Assembly (NCBI GenBank): GCA_935421135.1
Contig: OW285192.1
Location: 16,469,001-16,533,000, forward strand
Origin: Bugulina stolonifera
Lineage: Eukaryota; Bryozoa; Gymnolaemata; Cheilostomatida; Bugulidae
DNA: 64,000 nucleotides
Direction: 5' to 3'
Shown here: in pieces, positions 36,407 to 64,000 of the stretch
How positions within the stretch are numbered: the stretch's first letter is position 1
Layout of the letters: every line of letters begins with the position of its first letter
Notes under the pieces: model-generated
What the model was told of the DNA's origin: nothing
Seen by the model: the letters and a program-made list of their open reading frames with translations, nothing else
The model's database searches: none
Translations under genes and position numbers: made by a program

Positions 36407-54068
<17,662 letters not shown>

Positions 54069-54497
54069 GTAAGTAAGTTAAGCATTTTCTTTGCATGTAA
54101 ATTGGGTGCATAAAATAATAGGTTACTTTGGCTGCCATGTGTTGATACTTTCAGTGGGTTTCCATGGTTTGAACACATTAAACTTAGTGAGTTTCTACAA
54201 TATGGTTTGCGCACAGTGCACTTTGAGCACAGCTGAAATTATTGGATGAATCAGATTACTCTAAACTCTGTCAGTTTGGGGTCTCAGTGCACATACTTAC
54301 TGGTTTACATGGTTTCATGATTCATGTAGCACTTGGTGGAAACAGAGTGAGCCTGGTATGCATGATTAAGCACACCAGTCAGTTGCTCTAAAGCACGAGC
54401 CTGTCCCCATGTCATGCTAAACTAGTAATTGTTAGCAACAACTGTTATTAGTGAGTAGTATAGTCAGTGCAGATCTACACAGACACCCGGCCCTTTC

Positions 54498-55014
54498 CGC
54501 GTCGTATTAGCCCTAGATCCAAAAACTCCCCGGGCGGACGACCACCCCACCCGTCCTCTCGCCCCTCCTCTCCCCTAAACCTCACTCTATGTGCAAAGCC
54601 CTAGAACCTACTCCCCCCCATCGCGGGTGGGGTTTCAAAAACCTCATCGGCTGTTCCGCGGAACCCAGTCTAAAGAGCAAACCCCTCGCCCCATCCCACG
54701 GCTCGGGCGAGGGGGCGCGCGCGTACGCGCGCGCCCCCCCCCCCCGCCCCGCGAACCCCACCCGTCCTCCCTCCACCCGTCCCCGCCCCTCCCCACCCCA
54801 CCCCACCCCAAACCCCTCCGCCTCGCCCTCCGCCTCGCCCTCCGCCTCGCGGCGGTTCTCGTTCGCGAGTCCAGCCGTGGCCCCACGCCGCCCTCCCCCC
54901 GCCCATCCCCCGCCCCTCCCCCGCCCTCCCGCCCCAACGACCCGTCGCGACCCTCGCGGGCGGACCGTCGGCTGGAGTAGGGTGAAGCGAAGGAAAATAC
55001 GGGTTAGAGTAATG
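54498..55014. repeat. Left terminal inverted repeat of the PolB element
   Basis: About 517 bp, pairing with 63499-64000. It is very GC-rich, with C-runs, CCGCCTCGCCCT repeats (three here, one fewer in the right copy) and a perfect palindrome GCGCGCGTACGCGCGC extended by G5/C5 (54711-54738). The pairing probably continues left to about 54480; the partner bases lie outside the window. Confidence 0.93.
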
Positions 55015-55427
55015 ATAGGCTACACCCGTGCGGAGTGCCCGTGCAGAGTTTACGACGCTGACTATACTACTATAAAAAACTTACCGAGTGGTGGTGGTGG
55101 TGCTTCCGGATGATTTCTTCGCCGGGGACTGTTGAGAATGAACTGGTCGGGGTGACACCGCACTCGCGCGCTCCTCCGTTCGAGCGCCCCCGGACCTTCG
55201 ATGAAAGACTCGGGTCTTAACCCTCATTTTCCCCGGACCCTCCCCTAGGGAAATCGCCCGTCCCCGTGACGAGCGGCGAGAGAAAGTGAAGGCGGTGGCT
55301 CTTCCGCGCTTCAAACCGTAGACTTCGCGAGGAGGTTAGCCGACGACATCATCGCTCGGAGGGGTAGAAATAGAAATAGATAAACGGGATAGATGGATGA
55401 TTGTCTTCTCATCGCCATCATCATCAC

Positions 55428-55458
<31 letters not shown>

Positions 55459-55893
55459 CAAATAGACCCGCCTCTACGATGATGTCGTTGACTCGCCACC
55501 AATTTCTTTGACCACCGCGTCCACTTTCCCCCGGGTAGCAAACTCCGATAGGGAGAGAGCGCATCGTGCGCGTGCGATGTCACCCCCCACCTACGAATGA
55601 AGACAATAGAAGAAATGTGAACTGATAAGGGGTGAGTATGAGCGGAAGCTGCGCTAGTATCGTCTACCCCTTTGGTTTGGAGAGGTAAATGATTTTTAAT
55701 GTATTAGCTAGTGTTTTATTGCTCGGTTTTAAGGCTACAACCGGTAAACCCTCCGTTTTGAGGACGGAGACCCCTTACAATAGAGAGTGAATGTGAAAAA
55801 AATTATACGGGTATATGTACAAGGGTTATGATGCACTGTTCGTTTACTCTCCAATTTATCGAATGAAGTAGTCTCATCTCCGAGAAATCAGTA
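55015..55893. other. Region between left TIR and the polymerase gene
   Basis: No confident gene. Two short - strand open frames (55081-55314 and 55311-55583) have skewed composition. One runs through a (CAT)n array (55418-55455), read as Met repeats. They could be exons of an unrecognised small gene, but no splice structure or domain supports this. Confidence 0.4.
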
Positions 55894-58800
55894 CTAGCAT
55901 TCTATAGGACTCGTACTCACCCCGTCTTCTGCAACCTTCCGCTTACCATAGAAGTAGGTGAGTCCGGTCTTTAGCTGGGTGTAGCTATACGTTTGGTTTC
56001 CTCTTCTGATAAAACCCCGATTGTCCCCTCTCACCGACTCCCCTGTCCTGAGCACGGAGAGGAACTTCTCTTTGGTTAGGGCGTTTCCTCTTTTGTTTAG
56101 TCCTTTGCTGCTATACTTGCTATCACCATCAGCGGACCAGCAAAAGTATGTTTTTGAGTTGAGCGCGATGACCCCCTCCCCCCGAAACTCCTCCTTAAAC
56201 AGGCCGGGGGTTCGTGTTTCGTATCGTTGCACCTTCTCACAACATTCCCTCATCTCCCACTCTTGGCCAAGCACCTTGGTCGTGATAAAGTCTTCCTTGT
56301 GCCTATCGCAGAAGGGTCTGGGAAACCATCTACCATATTCTCTGTAGAACTCTTCTTTTTTATCTTTTCGGATGACCTCATCTATACTACGAGCACTCAG
56401 AGCCATGTAAGCGCTATCCGTGTCCATTTCTACGTACTCAAAGTCCTCTCTGCTGACGAATCTGTGAAAATAAAACGGACGGGTTGTAGGGGGGTTGGGG
56501 TTGACACCAAAGAATAAATAGAGAAGGATTTGATAAAATCTTTGTATAGTCTAGTTCTACTTACCTATCCATAAAGTCGTAGTAGAATTCTAGCATTCTC
56601 AACTTGGCTCTCTGGAGGATAACGAATCCTACGACAGATGGAACATCCATTCGAATCTAAAAGAAAGAAAGAGAGAGAGAGAGTTTACCCTACCACTCAG
56701 AAAAAGTTTCGTCAAATCAAGAATCAAAATAAAAAAAAAGATTGTCAACACTTGCCTTTTTCTTGTGAAGCTCTATCTCAAAGTAGTTTTCATCAACTTC
56801 GTTTAGACTAGAAAAGTGCCTACTCCTCACTTTGACAGCCGCCTCCTCTACTGTCTCCACATACTTGACAGTCTTATGTTTCTCTTTATTTGTTATGGTC
56901 TTTCCGTAGGCTGAATTCCCAACGAGCTTGCTGGTGCTGGCCAAGAGGGCCAGGTCGGGGTTCACATCCCCACCTCTTCTTGCGTCTGAGACCGAAGAAC
57001 CAAAGTCTTTGTAGATGGCTCGTGGGATAAAGTGAACAAACTGATAGATCCTGGTAATTATCAAACCTTGATCTAGATACCATCTAGCCAGATCGGAGAG
57101 TAGTGTGATTCGCTCGCCAAAAAGACTCCCCACGAGCATTCGCTGAGGTCTCTTCAAGAATCCGTTCTGTTCGGCAAAAGCGCGCATGTGTTCGCTAAGG
57201 TGTTCTCTTCCCACGTTTATATTCTTGAAAATAGGTGCCATCTCAGAGAACTTCGCTTTTAGCTCTTCGGGTACGGAAATGTCACACTCCACTAAACCAT
57301 AGTACTCTCCACTACGAATGTTATTGATTATCTTATCGAGGTTGACGTAACCCCTCTCCGGATAGAGAGAAGAAAAGAAGATGGCGAGAAATGTCCTAAC
57401 TTCTACATCCGAACGAACTCGCGCTTCCCACTCACACTGCCGAGTGGTGATGAGCTTATAGCCTAGAGCCTTGATGTAATCTTCTTTCCTTGCAGTGTCC
57501 ACCCGGAGCTCTTCATTCGTCATGTTTCTGACACCTTTTCCGTTCCCTCCTAGCTCGCACTCGTGCCCATGCCAGTAGCAACCGTGGAATTGGTACACCG
57601 TTCGACTCTGTTCGCTATAACCATCCACTGGTAGGTTGTGACAGCCTATCCTCATTTCTCCTCCATTCTGTTGGTGAAGGATGACCTCTCCTCTCTTCCA
57701 CGATTGGAACTCTAACCAACCATGCGCCACTTTGCTGAACTTTTTAATAGGTTCTAGAGCAAAGCCTCGGCTCTCTAGCCTCCGCCTGGGATAACCCGTA
57801 GGCATATTCCCCATCATACAGTATAGGTAGAGGGCGTTGGCATCAACTCCCAGAATGGACCTACAGGGTTTTGCGGATGTGCCATACATCTTCTCTCGAA
57901 TAGAGGTCACTCCAACTTCATGATGTCTGTGAAAGATAATGCTTGGCCCTCCCACGAGGTTATCGCGAAGAGTATGGTACAGACTTTTGCTCTCCTCATC
58001 GAACAGACATATGGGTTGCGAGTTGCAAAGTTCGTCTCGGAGAGACATTAACCTATGCAGCGGAAGAGCGGCTTGTGGAGGAGAGTAGCCATAAGGTCGG
58101 GCCTCCACCTCCTTAAACAACCATCTGATAGCCAAGCCTGGAAGCGAGATTGCGGATTTCAACATGTCAATACCCTTTTGTCGATAGATAGAGCTCTGAC
58201 GTGCAATGGCCTCGATGAATGGGGCCACATCGAGGTTGTTGTACCAGATGAGAAAATCCCTGAACGTTTCCATGTTCTCTCTTTCCCACACGACCTGACA
58301 GTGGTGATAATCTTGCTCGCTCAATTCTTGCTGAGTCAGCGAGTTGAAAAAACTCTCTCGGGGAGGGAGTCCATAATAATCCAACCTTCTCAGGGAATCT
58401 ACCCAGTCATAAGGAAAGAATCCCTTACTCTCTGACACGCCAAATGCCTTCAAGTATTTGGAGTAGTTGAAGCCCGGTGCGATAAAGTTGCATATGTCAA
58501 GGAACCTAAAACGTCTACTCTCCACGCAGGACATACTGTTAACACGCTTAACGATGAAGACAAAATCTTCTCCCTCCTCCTCTTGTAGAGAGCGAAGCAA
58601 AGGTCCCTTTAGTATATTTAGGTCATACTTTTGTGAGTTGAAACCAACCACCGGAACGCTGGAGATGTGCTGTTCTAACTCTCTTTCTAATCCGGAGAGA
58701 CCGGACTTCACCCTGTAAGTCGAGACGTTAGAGAACTTTTCGTCAGCAAAGGCTTCTTCTCTATCCGCCCGATCCGCAAGGAAAGTAGAGAGTCGCTTGC

Positions 58801-60555
58801 GTACATCCCGGAATCTTTCTCCGAACAAATCTCCTGCCACGTCAGCAATCTTTGCTATGTAGTGGACGAATTGACGAATGCACTTCGTTCCATCCTTGCT
58901 GTCGACACTCCTCACAAAGCACTTGGCCTGCTCAAACCCCGGGACGTTAGAACATACAGATATGCTCAGTAACTCGTGTCTTGCACTAAAAGTCATTGTG
59001 GAGGTGTTAGCTTGTAGGTTGTCTTTTGGCATGAAGCATTCAATATCATAGGTGATATAGTAGGGGTAGTATAAGAGGTCGGGGTTCACCACCTCTATTC
59101 CCGCCACTCGCTTGAGTTTTGTGAATATGGTTGGCGGGGGTCCAAACGTTCCACCAGGGAAAACAAACACCGATGCTTCCTCTGGCGAGCACTTATGTCG
59201 CCGTAGGCTGGACAAACGTGTGAAAGCGCCATCGCACAACTTGCAGGTGAAACATCTGGCAAACGAATCAACATTCTTTATCCAGCTGAAGTGTTTTTCG
59301 TACATGTTGACAAAGAGTTTACGGGCTTTGTTTCGTGCCCCAGATGACCAAACTATCGGAGCTACCCCCTCATCAGTTAGGCAGAAGACTATTATAGATA
59401 TGTCAAAATGATCTTCCAAGGCCAGCAGATCACTCGCGCCCACCCCGGGAAAGTCTGACAAAGTTGATGAGGGTGGGGAAGAAGATCTAGATCGTCTCAT
59501 GTATTGTTTAAACAAGCGATGTGTTGTGGTCTGAGAGGGGCGATGACAGCAACATCCCTTCTTTGGGTCGCAGTTACAGTCATACATCATGGCCAAACAT
59601 CTAAAGAAACACAATTTGTCTGGGTAGGGACGGGCACCTCCTCTGGCCCAAAAGTCTACATCTAGTGCTATCACATGTCGGTTGTTAAGTATGTAGTCTG
59701 GGAGTTTGCTCACTACACCACCCACCTTGCCAATCTCTAGGAGTTTATAGATGTAGAATGTCAAATTTGCAATGTGACGTAAAACCCAAGCGGTGTTCGG
59801 TCTCCTTTGTGCTGACCTCTCTCTCAAGTCGAGCTCCTGCACAGATTCGCAAAACTCTCTCATCTCATTCTCTGCTCTGATCAGTCTTGGCTTGGGGAAG
59901 AACGCGGCATTGTTGCTTGATGAGTGAAAGTAGCGCAACTCTCCACTGGTCTTATGCTCGAGGATGACTCCAGCGCTACAGTTAATCTTCACAGTACAAG
60001 GTACTCTCTTCCACATCGCTCTCAATTTAGTCCACACCTCTTCATCTCCTTCATCTTCACATTCCCCTCTCCACACTCGAACGTTGAGAATGTCTTCTAC
60101 AGGACGAGAGTGTATTGTGGACCTGATCGAGCTCCAATAGCGGGCTAGTAGCACCCCCATCTCATCCCCCTCTTCAGCTGTTGGAGGTTTGGACCAGAAA
60201 ACATCATCAAACTTCTCTGCATCCCCCTCATCTTTTTCCGCCTTGGCCTCGCTATGAAATCGTCTCATGTGATGACCTAGCTTTCTCCTCCCATCAAAAC
60301 ATCCGCCACAAACCGGGCACTTGTGTGGGTGAGCCTGTGCATGCATTCTCTTCGTGTGCCTGTCTAGAGAAAACGCTGTTTTGAGAACCAGACCGCATAG
60401 TTGACAAGTGTGCTCGGCCTGACGAGAGCTCTCCCCCCCTATAAAAATACAAAATAGTAGGGTGTAAGTTATTCTTTTACCTCATACTACTATTAGCAAT
60501 CCACAATTGTTACCAACTACCTCATTTAGCACTAACCTTTTTTACTTGTTGACAT
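55894..60555 (-). CDS. Family B DNA polymerase of the element (protein-primed type likely)
   Basis: Four exons join in phase: 60555-60537, 60438-56756, 56656-56565 and 56461-55894 (4362 nt, 1453 residues). The second intron has a GC donor (AAG|GCAAGT). Domains: two C2H2 fingers (Cys18-His39, Cys47-His68); an N-terminal region with a FFRCLAMMYD segment and a third Cys/His cluster (about 401-423) as in large PolB proteins of metazoan elements; exonuclease motifs DIE (Asp471/Glu473), NSQKYD (607-612) and YNNLD (739-743); polymerase motif A GVDANALYL (Asp872); a HGCYWHGHEC nuclease-like motif (958-967); motif B KLVGNSAYG (1177-1185); motif C DTDS (1278-1281). The C-terminus ends DGVSTSPIEC. Catalytic residues appear intact. 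It should replicate the element from its ends. No separate terminal protein was recognised. Confidence 0.9.
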
Positions 60556-60785
60556 CTCTGATCAGGTGCTGACTAGTAGGTAAGTGTCTCTGTTTAGTCT
60601 CCCTATAAAAAATATATAGTAGTAGGGTGTAAGTTAATTTTTTTGTTTTTGGCTCAATAGCGTTATATACAATAGACACTTCACAATTGCTGCCGATTAC
60701 CCTATTTAGCACTAACCTTATGTTGTACTTGTTGACATCTCTGATCAGGTGCTGACTAGTAGGTAGCTGTCTCTGTTTACTCTCA
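60437..60785. repeat. Direct duplication of the polymerase exon 1 region
   Basis: Two copies, 60437-60600 and 60601-60785, share CCCTATAAAAA, AGTAGGGTGTAAGTTA, ACACAATTG-like and TTGACATCTCTGATCAGG blocks. The proximal copy holds the start codon and the 19-nt coding exon (MSTSKKG). In the distal copy the same ATG is followed by TAA after six codons. The distal copy is therefore 5' leader with an upstream short frame, or a spare non-coding first exon. Confidence 0.8.
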
Positions 60786-60837
60786 CTCTGTTGACTAGAG
60801 GCTGATTGTTCATACTGCTAGAGTGAGAAACTCATAC

Positions 60838-60896
60838 CTTAAATAGTAGTATTCAGTGGGCGGAGTCTAACCATTTCCCCACCCTTGGCAATACCA
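60838..60896 (-). promoter_or_regulatory. Likely core promoter of the polymerase gene
   Basis: On the - strand a CTCCGCCCAC GC-box-like motif (about 60866-60857) is followed by TATTTAAG (about 60847-60840), right at the edge of the repeat palindrome. It lies about 285 nt upstream of the start codon. Confidence 0.45.
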
Positions 60897-61712
60897 CCCC
60901 GATGTGAATCCGAAGCCTCCCGATGTGAATCCGAAGCCTCCCGATGTGAATCCGAAGCTTCCCGATGCATCCCGATGTGAATCCGAAGCTTCCCGATGCA
61001 TCCCGATGTGATTCCGAAGCTTCCCGATGCATCCCGATGTGAATCCGAAGCTTCCCGATGCATCCCGATGTGATTCCGAAGCTTCCCGATGCATCCCGAT
61101 GTGATTCCGAAGCTTCCCGATGCATCCCGATGTGATTCCGAAGCTTCCCGATGCATCCCGATGTGAATCCGAAGCTTCCCGATGCATCCCGATGTGATTC
61201 CGAAGCTTCCCGATGTGATTCCGAAGCTTCCCGATGCATCCCGATGTGAATCCGAAGCTTCCCGATGCATCCCGATGTGATTCCGAAGCCTCCCGATGCA
61301 TCCCGATGCACCCCGATGTGAATTGACACATCGGGACACATCGGGATGCATCGGGAAGCTTCGGAATCACATCGGGATGCATCGGGAAGCTTCGGAATCA
61401 CATCGGGATGCATAGGGAAGCTTCGGATTCACATCGGGATGCATCGGGAAGCTTCGGAATCACATCGGGATGCATCGGGAAGCTTCGGAATCACATCGGG
61501 ATGCATCGGGAAGCTTCGGAATCACATCGGGATGCATCGGGAAGCTTCGGATTCACATCGGGATGCATCGGGAAGCTTCGGAATCACATCGGGATGCATC
61601 GGGAAGCTTCGGATTCACATCGGGATGCATCGGGAGGCTTCGGATTCACATCGGGGTGCATCGGGAGGCTTCGGATTCACATCGGGATGCATCGGGACAC
61701 ATTGGGATTGGA
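60897..61712. repeat. Head-to-head palindrome of 31-bp iteron-like repeats
   Basis: Left arm 60897-61320 and right arm 61327-61712 are built from the same 31-bp unit in opposite orientations, with a few units missing part. The unit contains CATCGGGATGCATCGGGA and AAGCTTCGGA, with two inner palindromes (CCCGATGCATCGGG and an AAGCTT-centred one). About 14 and 11 cores are counted in the two arms. The centre is near 61323. It sits exactly between the divergent polymerase and OB-like protein genes. An ori/promoter role is inference. Confidence 0.92.
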
Positions 61713-61747
61713 TAATAAAAAGGGAGGAGTCAAGAAATGAGCAGATG

Positions 61748-61754
61748 TATAAAG
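61748..61754 (+). promoter_or_regulatory. TATA box of the + strand element gene
   Basis: TATAAAG about 35 bp past the palindrome edge and 89 bp before the ATG at 61837. This leaves a 5' leader of about 60 nt if transcription starts about 30 bp downstream. Confidence 0.6.
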
Positions 61755-61836
61755 GGAGAGTGGGATCACAGTCTCAGCATTCAAAGTTCAGCACATCACT
61801 ACTGTACAGGAACACTACTACAATAGTACATTATCA

Positions 61837-63151
61837 ATGGATACTGACAACATAGTCCAGAACCAAGAAGAGTTATTTGCGGGCTTAACGGACTCACAAA
61901 TGGATGGAATTATTGAAGAAGAAGAGTGCAGTCAGAAGAGGAAAGAAGAGGTGGATGCGTTAAAAGAGGCACGGAAGAAGGGGAAAATAATAGGAGTGGG
62001 GAGTCTTGCCCGAAAGGATCTTTCTAACATGGCGGACTCTCCGTCCTCCCCGGAGCGGGCCTCGGATAGGGGCGAGACCACAACAACCAAGAAGAGGAAG
62101 AACCCAAAAGGAGATGAAATCTGTGCTAAGAAAAAAAAGAAACCCCAGGTGATTGTAATATCAGATGATGATGATGATGGCCACGGAGCCGATACGGCTA
62201 CGGAAGAAATGGATGGTGGTGAGACGACGAAGGGAAAAAAAGCTACCAAGTCCCCTTGCAAGGGGAAGAAAAAGAGCGGGGGACTAAGCCTGGAGAAAGC
62301 TCGTGCAGTGGCGGCAACCCTAATGTAAGTAGCCCTATTCGTATATCTATAAATTACCGTACTATCTTTCTCCCGTTTAACCACTTTGTCGGATCTATAT
62401 ACACCACTTTCATTATTGTAGGAGCATGGGAGCGGAGAAGAGGAGCTCTCTGCAGACAACGGTGAAGCTGTCGGAGCTAGAGCCAGGAACTGTGCTAGAA
62501 GTGAGTGGAGGTTCGGTGGTTGAAACGGCATTCGGAAAAGCATTCTTAGCCAGGGCAAGCTATGTGGATGACAAGGGGATGAGACATTGCATCAGCTTTC
62601 ACACCAACATTCGTCACGCCATGCCCAAGCTAGCGGATGTCAAAGAAGAGGAGCTAAAGGACCTTACCCTTCCACCTAGGATCATGGTGTACTTGGGACA
62701 GCAGGAGACCGCTAAAGGACAAAACACATTCAACCGTATCGAGAGCGTGTGCTCCCTGCCAGGAGCAGCCATGAAAAAGCTGGCCGGTGACTTGAGAAAG
62801 AAGACCTTGGCCCAGTTGGAAGAATTTTTTCGAGTGCAAACGCTATCTTCCTTCCCCGTTGGTTCTGTGCTGGTGGTGACCGCGCTCCGACCCACATACG
62901 TCCCAAGATGCGGTGATGGTGATAATGCGAGCAACTCCATTGCCACCTACGAGTGCCGGATTGGAAACGAAGAAAAAAAGGGAGAAGTCTTCCTTCCGGG
63001 ACGTCTGGCAGTTTCGATGAAAGAGCTCCTCCCCTCCGTGATGGTGTACAAGGGACAGAAGACTTCCAAGAGCGGGAGAACATTCTACGATTGTGCCATT
63101 CTAGACTCCATCCTCGGCGAGCGTCTCCTCCCCGCCACTGCACAGTTTTGA
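61837..63151 (+). CDS. Element-encoded nuclear protein with duplicated OB-like C-terminal domain (putative ssDNA/repeat-binding)
   Basis: Two exons, 61837-62324 and 62422-63151, join in phase (1218 nt, 405 residues). Residues 1-162 are charged and low complexity. They hold basic clusters fit for nuclear import (KKRK 85-88, KKKKK 98-102) and, right after, VIVISDDDDD (105-114), a textbook SUMO-interacting motif. The C-terminal half holds two diverged repeats, about 177-271 and 302-392. Each has an EPGTVLEV / PVGSVLVV strand and a closing LPPRIMVYLGQ..TF / LPSVMVYKGQ..TF block. The strand-rich pattern suggests OB-fold units and thus a single-strand DNA-binding partner for the polymerase; this is inference. 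No known family was recognised with certainty. Confidence 0.75.
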
Positions 63152-63189
63152 GGCAAAAACTTTTGTCATTCACACTCATTCGTGTCTAC

Positions 63190-63480
63190 TTATCAATTGA
63201 TTTTATATTATTACTCTCAAACTCGTGTATCGTTAGCCTTACTCATATTTTTCATAGTCGTATATCGGATTTTATCGCTTGATTTTATATTATTACTCTC
63301 AAACGTATTGAAAATTAAAACAAACTCGCGTATCATTACCCTTACTCATATTTTTCGTAGTCACATATCAAGTTTTTTATCGATTGATTTTATATTATTA
63401 CTCTCAAACGCATTGAAAATTAAAACAAACTCGTGTATCATTACCCTGACTCATATTTTCATAGTCGTATATCATCTATT
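63190..63480. repeat. Three tandem AT-rich repeats next to the right TIR
   Basis: Units of about 105 bp (the first shortened to about 85) share TTGATTTTATATTATTACTC, TATCATTACCCTTACTCATA and CATAGTCGTATATC-like blocks. They separate the + strand gene from the right TIR and may hold its 3' UTR. No canonical AATAAA was found in the spacer. Confidence 0.85.
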
Positions 63481-63498
63481 CTAGAATACATCACACAC

Positions 63499-64000
63499 CA
63501 TTACTCTAACCCGTATTTTCCTTCGCTTCACCCTACTCCAGCCGACGGTCCGCCCGCGAGGGTCGCGATGGGGTGGTTGGGGCGGGAGGGCGGGGGAGGG
63601 GCGGGGGATGGGCGGGGGGAGGGCGGCGTGGGGCCACGGCTGGACTCGCGAACGAGAACCGCCGCGAGGCGGAGGGCGAGGCGGAGGGGTTTGGGGTGGG
63701 GAGGGGTGGGGAGGGGCGGGGACGGGTGGAGGGAGGACGGGTGGGGTTCGCGGGGCGGGGGGGGCGCGCGCGTACGCGCGCGCCCCCTCGCCCGAGCCGT
63801 GGGATGGGGCGAGGGGTTTGCTCTTTAGACTGGGTTCCGCGGAACAGCCGATGAGGTTTTTGAAACCCCACCCGCGATGGGGGGGAGTAGGTTCTAGGGC
63901 TTTGCACATAGAGTGAGGTTTAGGGGAGAGGAGGGGCGAGAGGACGGGTGGGGTGGTCGTCCGCCCGGGGAGTTTTTGGATCTAGGGCTAATACGACGCG
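63499..64000. repeat. Right terminal inverted repeat of the PolB element (cut by window end)
   Basis: The reverse complement of 54498-55014, differing by small gains or losses in C-runs and in the CCGCCTCGCCCT repeat. The GCGCGCGTACGCGCGC palindrome recurs near 63760-63785. The near identity of the two ends suggests recent activity or copying of one end from the other. Confidence 0.93.

Follow-up and report, generated by a model that had tools for sequence, protein, structure and literature searches.

The window analysed here is a stretch of 64,000 nucleotides from Bugulina stolonifera (G000:C6:16469001-16533000) in a 235-Mb assembly of 27 contigs, and all results rest on this one assembly. 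It contains element A, a transposable element of 9,591 bp (positions 54454-64044, the right border lying 44 bp beyond the window, in L069) with one gene for a PolB DNA polymerase and one for an OB-fold protein. Element A is probably, with a likelihood of roughly three in four, the replication segment of a bipartite Polinton/Maverick, with a second element, element B, as the segment for capsid, integrase and ATPase. It is read as one half of a split transposon because element B, which has matching ends and shares an internal region with it, carries the genes for shell and integration. Taken together the two elements hold PolB, integrase, capsid and ATPase, and for the protease a candidate.

Gene sets and shared sequences of elements A and B

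What is described below as absent from a pair of ends is absent among the matches listed in the searches, of which the part on C1-C3 was used (34 of 131 PolB places, 46 of 150 OB-fold gene places, 51 of 127 integrase places and 14 places of a gene-less palindromic form). Within the lists covered, PolB places lie in A-ended elements in 32 of 33 cases and in B-ended elements in 0 of 28, and OB-fold gene places in 31 of 44 and 0 of 34 cases, respectively. The reverse distribution was found for the integrase (0/45 in A-ended and 18/38 in B-ended elements) and the capsid gene (0/24 and 13/18).

The tip of element B, AGTAGTATAGTCAGTGCACTTCTAGACAGACACGCAC, agrees with that of A in its first 18 bp and, over 37 positions, in 31, and both elements make 6-bp duplications. 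Element B also holds the right half of the central palindrome of A, the promoter and the OB-fold gene as far as codon ~84, where its copy of the gene is cut (93.6% identity over 890 bp). A junction probe running from this common region into B-specific DNA gave a full-length match at all 40 places scored, out of 512 candidates. The exact 31-bp repeat of the palindrome occurs 1,629 + 1,630 times in the assembly, and when its first 100 listed places (C1 to 12.66 Mb) were matched by eye to the lists of ends it was found in all three full-size paired B elements, beside one unpaired B end and in A elements. The gene sets of the two DNAs complement each other, and terminal as well as internal sequences are common to both, as in a bipartite genome.

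Element B, which was read in one copy, is 10.8 kb long and encodes a capsid protein with a predicted double-jelly-roll (DJR) fold, an rve/chromodomain integrase and a packaging ATPase; the capsid protein is identical in 94 of 94 scored copies. In the copy read no PolB or other recognisable replication gene was found, and neither the gene pieces of A nor nine open reading frames (ORFs) of B gave a Pfam match to a parvovirus-type capsid or a superfamily 3 helicase. The candidate protease is a 114-aa piece in L076, adenain-like by eye only, with no Pfam or PDB match. B-type ends number 362 + 364 = 726 in the assembly (control 0), and among 48 B-ended pairs 18 hold an integrase from the list, 10 are recognised by a 400-bp probe for what is here called class C and 20 match no probe, two of the last holding a listed capsid gene. 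Class C, which is abundant, comprises elements of ~9.5 kb with B-type ends, for example G000:C1:3987912-3997479 (L078, L079, L080), and of 158 candidate places for its probe the 40 scored are 100% identical. Since the probe occurs in one orientation per element, class C is not a palindrome like L071 (see below). It is possibly a third segment, defined here by its ends and the 400-bp probe. A Ser/Thr-rich repetitive open frame was seen in L080.

Anatomy of element A

Element A has the terminal inverted repeats (TIRs), the (AGT)2...(ACT)2 tips and the 6-bp duplications of a Polinton/Maverick, its left tip beginning AGTAGTATAGTCAGTGCAG. Counted from the tip, the first 288 bp of the TIR are perfect, and a diverged GC-rich part follows to ~545 bp (an estimate). 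Between the TIRs two divergent genes are placed around the central palindrome, PolB on the minus strand and the gene of a 405-aa protein on the plus strand. The features are as follows.

54448..54453, no strand: left copy of the target site duplication, 6 bp, TTAGTG; the right copy, 64045-64050, is outside the window (L069 1045-1050)
54454..55010, plus strand: left TIR with the tip AGTAGTATAGTCAGTGCAG, inner border approximate
55894..60346, minus strand: PolB gene, predicted exons 60346-56756, 56656-56565 and 56461-55894
57422..57634, minus strand: Vsr-like endonuclease insert, PolB residues 905-975, from profile and single-sequence searches
59267..59629, minus strand: vOTU-like protease region as in polinton PolB, assigned by analogy with PMC11071308
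60347..60432, minus strand: upstream C2H2 zinc finger, in frame, the frame read by eye
60879..61708, no strand: central palindrome, 31-bp repeats in two inverted arrays, found in element B too
61200..62088, no strand: region common to element B (right palindrome half, promoter and first ~84 codons)
61748..61753, plus strand: TATAAA box before the OB-fold gene, by eye, in the promoter region common to element B
61837..63151, plus strand: gene of the 405-aa OB-fold (SSB/RPA-like) protein, predicted exons 61837-62324 and 62422-63151
63499..64000, minus strand: right TIR, continuing to 64044 in L069

The original prediction, made from the window alone, described two genes (PolB and one DNA-binding protein), long near-identical TIRs and a central repeat palindrome, all of which were recovered, the DNA-binding protein as the OB-fold protein. 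Its left border, 54480, is corrected to 54454, and the right end and target duplication that it placed beyond 64000 were located there. It had also seen no integrase or capsid gene between the TIRs, in agreement with the present searches: an rve integrase was not found in the ORF list or by Pfam on the gene pieces of A, and neither a DJR major capsid protein nor an A32/FtsK-type ATPase was found by Pfam on the same pieces. As these three are lacking, element A alone is not filed as a standard Polinton; A and B jointly have them. The ORF list gave no further convincing gene in element A, including the 55.0-55.9 kb region, where it holds one 90-aa low-complexity frame and the inner part of the GC-rich TIR frame (no profile search of these frames was made).

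The 405-aa protein is a tandem OB-fold of SSB/RPA-like type, its length holding under the predicted splicing. In PolB two introns were predicted by eye, one of them GC-AG, with junctions that agree with the intronless relative P0024. The protein matches DNA_pol_B_2 (PF03175, E 7.6e-7), and the motifs YDIE, FNSQKYD, YNNLDV, DANALY, KLVGNSAYGKT and MDTDS were read by eye. It appears to be of the protein-primed type, with a putative terminal-protein function and priming. Because an in-frame zinc finger lies upstream of 60346 the start at this position is provisional; the finger is probably an additional 5' exon, and among the 91 relatives in the protein database many have C2H2 fingers.

Two further regions of PolB resemble known enzymes. 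A vOTU-like domain has been described for polinton PolB (PMC11071308, seen in part), and C246 and H352, invariant in all 25 aligned PolB sequences, are by this analogy candidates for its catalytic Cys and His. For polinton PolB the same paper also speaks of homing-endonuclease inserts; it does not use the word Vsr in the part consulted. In element A a Vsr-like insert sits between the polymerase motifs. Searched with single sequences it gives weak matches (PF03852 at E 0.0039; at E 0.01 in 5 of 25 members). When PolB pieces from 17 of the 25 aligned sequences were combined into a profile, however, three PDB entries matched at E <=1, all of them Vsr, the best at 5.2e-6. The homologues P0028 and P0031 carry the name very short patch repair protein in their source. 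Like the Vsr mismatch endonuclease, the insert conserves the positions GC-(Y/F)-W-H...C, D and ECxW, to which we presume the roles of the corresponding Vsr residues; unlike it, it is a domain within a DNA polymerase and its activity is putative.

Repeats were also noted at three places. Upstream of PolB (60440-60790) a stretch of ~180 bp is tandemly duplicated (three repeat families, spacing 165-183), behind the OB-fold gene (63190-63460) there are direct repeats of about 105 bp, and immediately to the left of the element, outside it, lies a long 8-bp simple repeat (53545-53860).

Copies, derivatives and alternative explanations

Further copies, for which the original prediction proposed a search, are numerous. 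The A-type 29-bp end, with <=2 mismatches, occurs 364 + 380 = 744 times in the assembly and the reversed control 0 times, which is far beyond chance, and the 6-bp duplication is perfect in 11 of 11 A-ended copies tested (8/8 paired and three further). Pairing the first 100 exact ends in the list (of the 744) gave 48 A-ended pairs of 6.5-11.1 kb and left 4 ends unpaired. PolB and the OB-fold gene are both found in 29 of the pairs, PolB only in 3 and the OB-fold gene only in 2; 10 are of the gene-less palindromic form and 4 lack any probe match. None of the 48 exceeds 11.1 kb or holds any of the 45 covered integrase places, so that longer relatives in which the same TIRs enclose an integrase, which would make element A a deleted Polinton, were not found among them.

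For exon 2 of the OB-fold gene the best 150 of 340 candidate copies are all 99-100% identical, 146 without stops, and the same holds for the best 131 of 371 candidates for the PolB pieces, 130 without stops. In a sample of 30 loci, chosen by best protein score and hence biased, and including the window's own copy L053, comparison with the window copy gave 23 mismatches in 21,780 bases for exon 2, 28 in 17,636 for exon 1 with the intron and 128 in 9,283, typically four per locus, for a 3' noncoding stretch. Judged from these sequences the amplification of element A is recent, in line with the earlier suggestion, supported too by the perfect duplications, that the element is or was recently active.

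Several derivatives keep the ends of A. In L070 PolB carries an internal deletion and the right end is swapped for an inverted left end. L071 (G000:C1:11555876-11564273) is a near-perfect palindrome of 8.4 kb with A ends and a 6-bp duplication, in which no gene was recognised; it belongs to an abundant family and holds AT-rich repeats not found in element A. The gene-less palindromic form has 40 scored of 421 candidate matches, up to two per element. Snap-back forms of this kind can result from strand-displacement replication of linear DNA, and here their copies are many. A further A-ended copy, L050, is 2,664 bp long, keeps exon 2 of the OB-fold gene and has a perfect 6-bp duplication, GACATA.

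In the proposed split Polinton, replication would fall to the PolB of A: using its N-terminal terminal-protein domain as primer at the (AGT)2 tips, and with help from the OB-fold protein, it would copy every linear DNA bearing these tips. The integrase from B would insert A, B and their derivatives, giving the 6-bp duplications, and the capsid from B may package them, while the shared palindrome and promoter would be the common region of both segments, serving as an origin, packaging or co-regulation signal. As the functions missing from A are found on B, the question of how A integrates has a candidate answer, the integrase of B acting in trans. A wider formulation, a multipartite integrating DJR double-stranded DNA virus or transposon of a eukaryote, probably an animal, consisting of A, B and possibly C, each present as many near-identical copies that integrated independently, and exploited by the gene-less palindromes, is put forward tentatively.

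A number of observations weigh against the split. None of the five B-ended elements of 8.9-9.6 kb in the stretch covered, one of them a probe-confirmed class C, has the exact 31-bp repeat, so that the common region is not required for the shared ends, and arrays of the repeat occur outside the listed pairs (C1:7092894-7093525 and C1:7562689-7563403). The inner TIR of B differs from that of A, and with the OB-fold gene of B cut at ~84 codons the common region could have entered by recombination and then spread. Outside the listed exact-end pairs lie 13 of 44 OB-fold and 20 of 38 integrase places; four of these integrases are of the L073 type and two adjoin an unpaired B end. Of the PolB pieces 10 of 131 are in open frames of <1,000 aa, and low divergence alone could mean recent amplification and not selection. 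That the elements complement each other in trans, that replication is primed by protein and that the DNAs are packaged is inferred, and so is the role of the common region. Complete or near-complete Polintons, finally, are present in the same genome and could supply the missing functions.

It is on the last point that an alternative is built, in which A and B are separate incomplete derivatives that parasitise complete Polintons for integrase and capsid, and in the case of B for PolB. The L072/L001/L073 Polinton has PolB, integrase and ATPase, L008 has a Vsr-type PolB and, at a distance of ~3 kb, an integrase (the two were not read as a single element), and the tip of L072 is identical to A over the first 10 bp, and at 19 of 37 positions, with a 6-bp duplication. 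This alternative is nevertheless unlikely, given that the L001/L073-type integrases are few (six near-identical among 127 scored, two with a stop) against the 744 A-type ends, that genes which a parasite would not need stay intact in A and B, and that A and B have 18 tip bases and the common region in common, while the complete type shares only 10 tip bases and the palindrome repeat was not found in the L072-type pieces. Of these two other Polinton types in the genome, L072/L001/L073 has a PolB with an Endonuclease_7 insert and L008 one with the Vsr-like insert, 37% identical to the PolB of the window.

Less probable again is a host with its satellite, in which either B would be the main element and A its satellite, having taken over replication, or the roles would be exchanged. 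The spread of gene-less palindromic derivatives with the ends of A makes parasitism on the replication system plausible, but element B, as read, is unlikely to be self-sufficient without a recognisable replication gene, and each element holds what the other is without. Least probable, and by a wide measure improbable, is a self-sufficient minimal PolB element integrated by the Vsr-like nuclease or a host enzyme. The conserved insert and the lack of an integrase in A speak for it, but 6-bp duplications with (AGT)2 tips are reported, in the part of PMC8097293 consulted, as the hallmark of Mavericks, elements that have an rve integrase, and the Vsr-type PolB near an integrase in L008 indicates that the insert need not replace one. 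Of the original prediction the gene content, the lack of integrase and capsid and the recent activity are retained, but element A is probably not a minimal element acting alone, its missing functions being on an element whose ends are almost the same and which has an internal region in common with it.

Comparison with known systems

Polintons are seen as a hub joining adenoviruses, virophages, linear plasmids and bidnaviruses, and split genomes are well known among RNA and single-stranded DNA viruses. A Polinton split over two separately jumping DNAs would, if true, mean that splitting can arise within Polintons themselves. The hundreds of ends and the near-identical copies that one chromosome-scale assembly contains would then open copy-number balance, cheating by forms without genes and segment dependence to direct tests.

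Linear protein-primed plasmids of the pGKL/kalilo type resemble element A in their PolB with a fused terminal-protein region, their TIRs and their few genes. They are extrachromosomal, whereas element A sits in the genome as hundreds of integrated copies with target duplications. With Polintons/Mavericks element A shares a protein-primed-type PolB, TIRs with (AGT)2//(ACT)2 tips and 6-bp duplications, the latter two as quoted in PMC8097293 (in the part seen) after Kapitonov and Jurka 2006, and its partner B has the integrase, DJR capsid protein and ATPase. It differs in having an OB-fold protein gene and in that the gene set is spread over two separately integrated elements of 9.6 and 10.8 kb, whereas a standard Polinton is, according to the part of PMC4028283 consulted, a single element of 15-20 kb. 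Bidnaviridae have, from the sections seen, a PolB of polinton origin and a linear two-segment genome with conserved ends (PMC4061559), some members being reported with up to twelve segments (PMC11071296), and are like A and B in this PolB and in the two linear DNAs with conserved ends. They are unlike them in their parvovirus-type capsid, superfamily 3 helicase and ~6-kb single-stranded DNA segments in separate capsids, the capsid of the A/B system being of the DJR type and its segments integrated. Going by the parts consulted of the CC-licensed PMC texts, the closest split relatives known for polintons are the Bidnaviridae, which have a different capsid.
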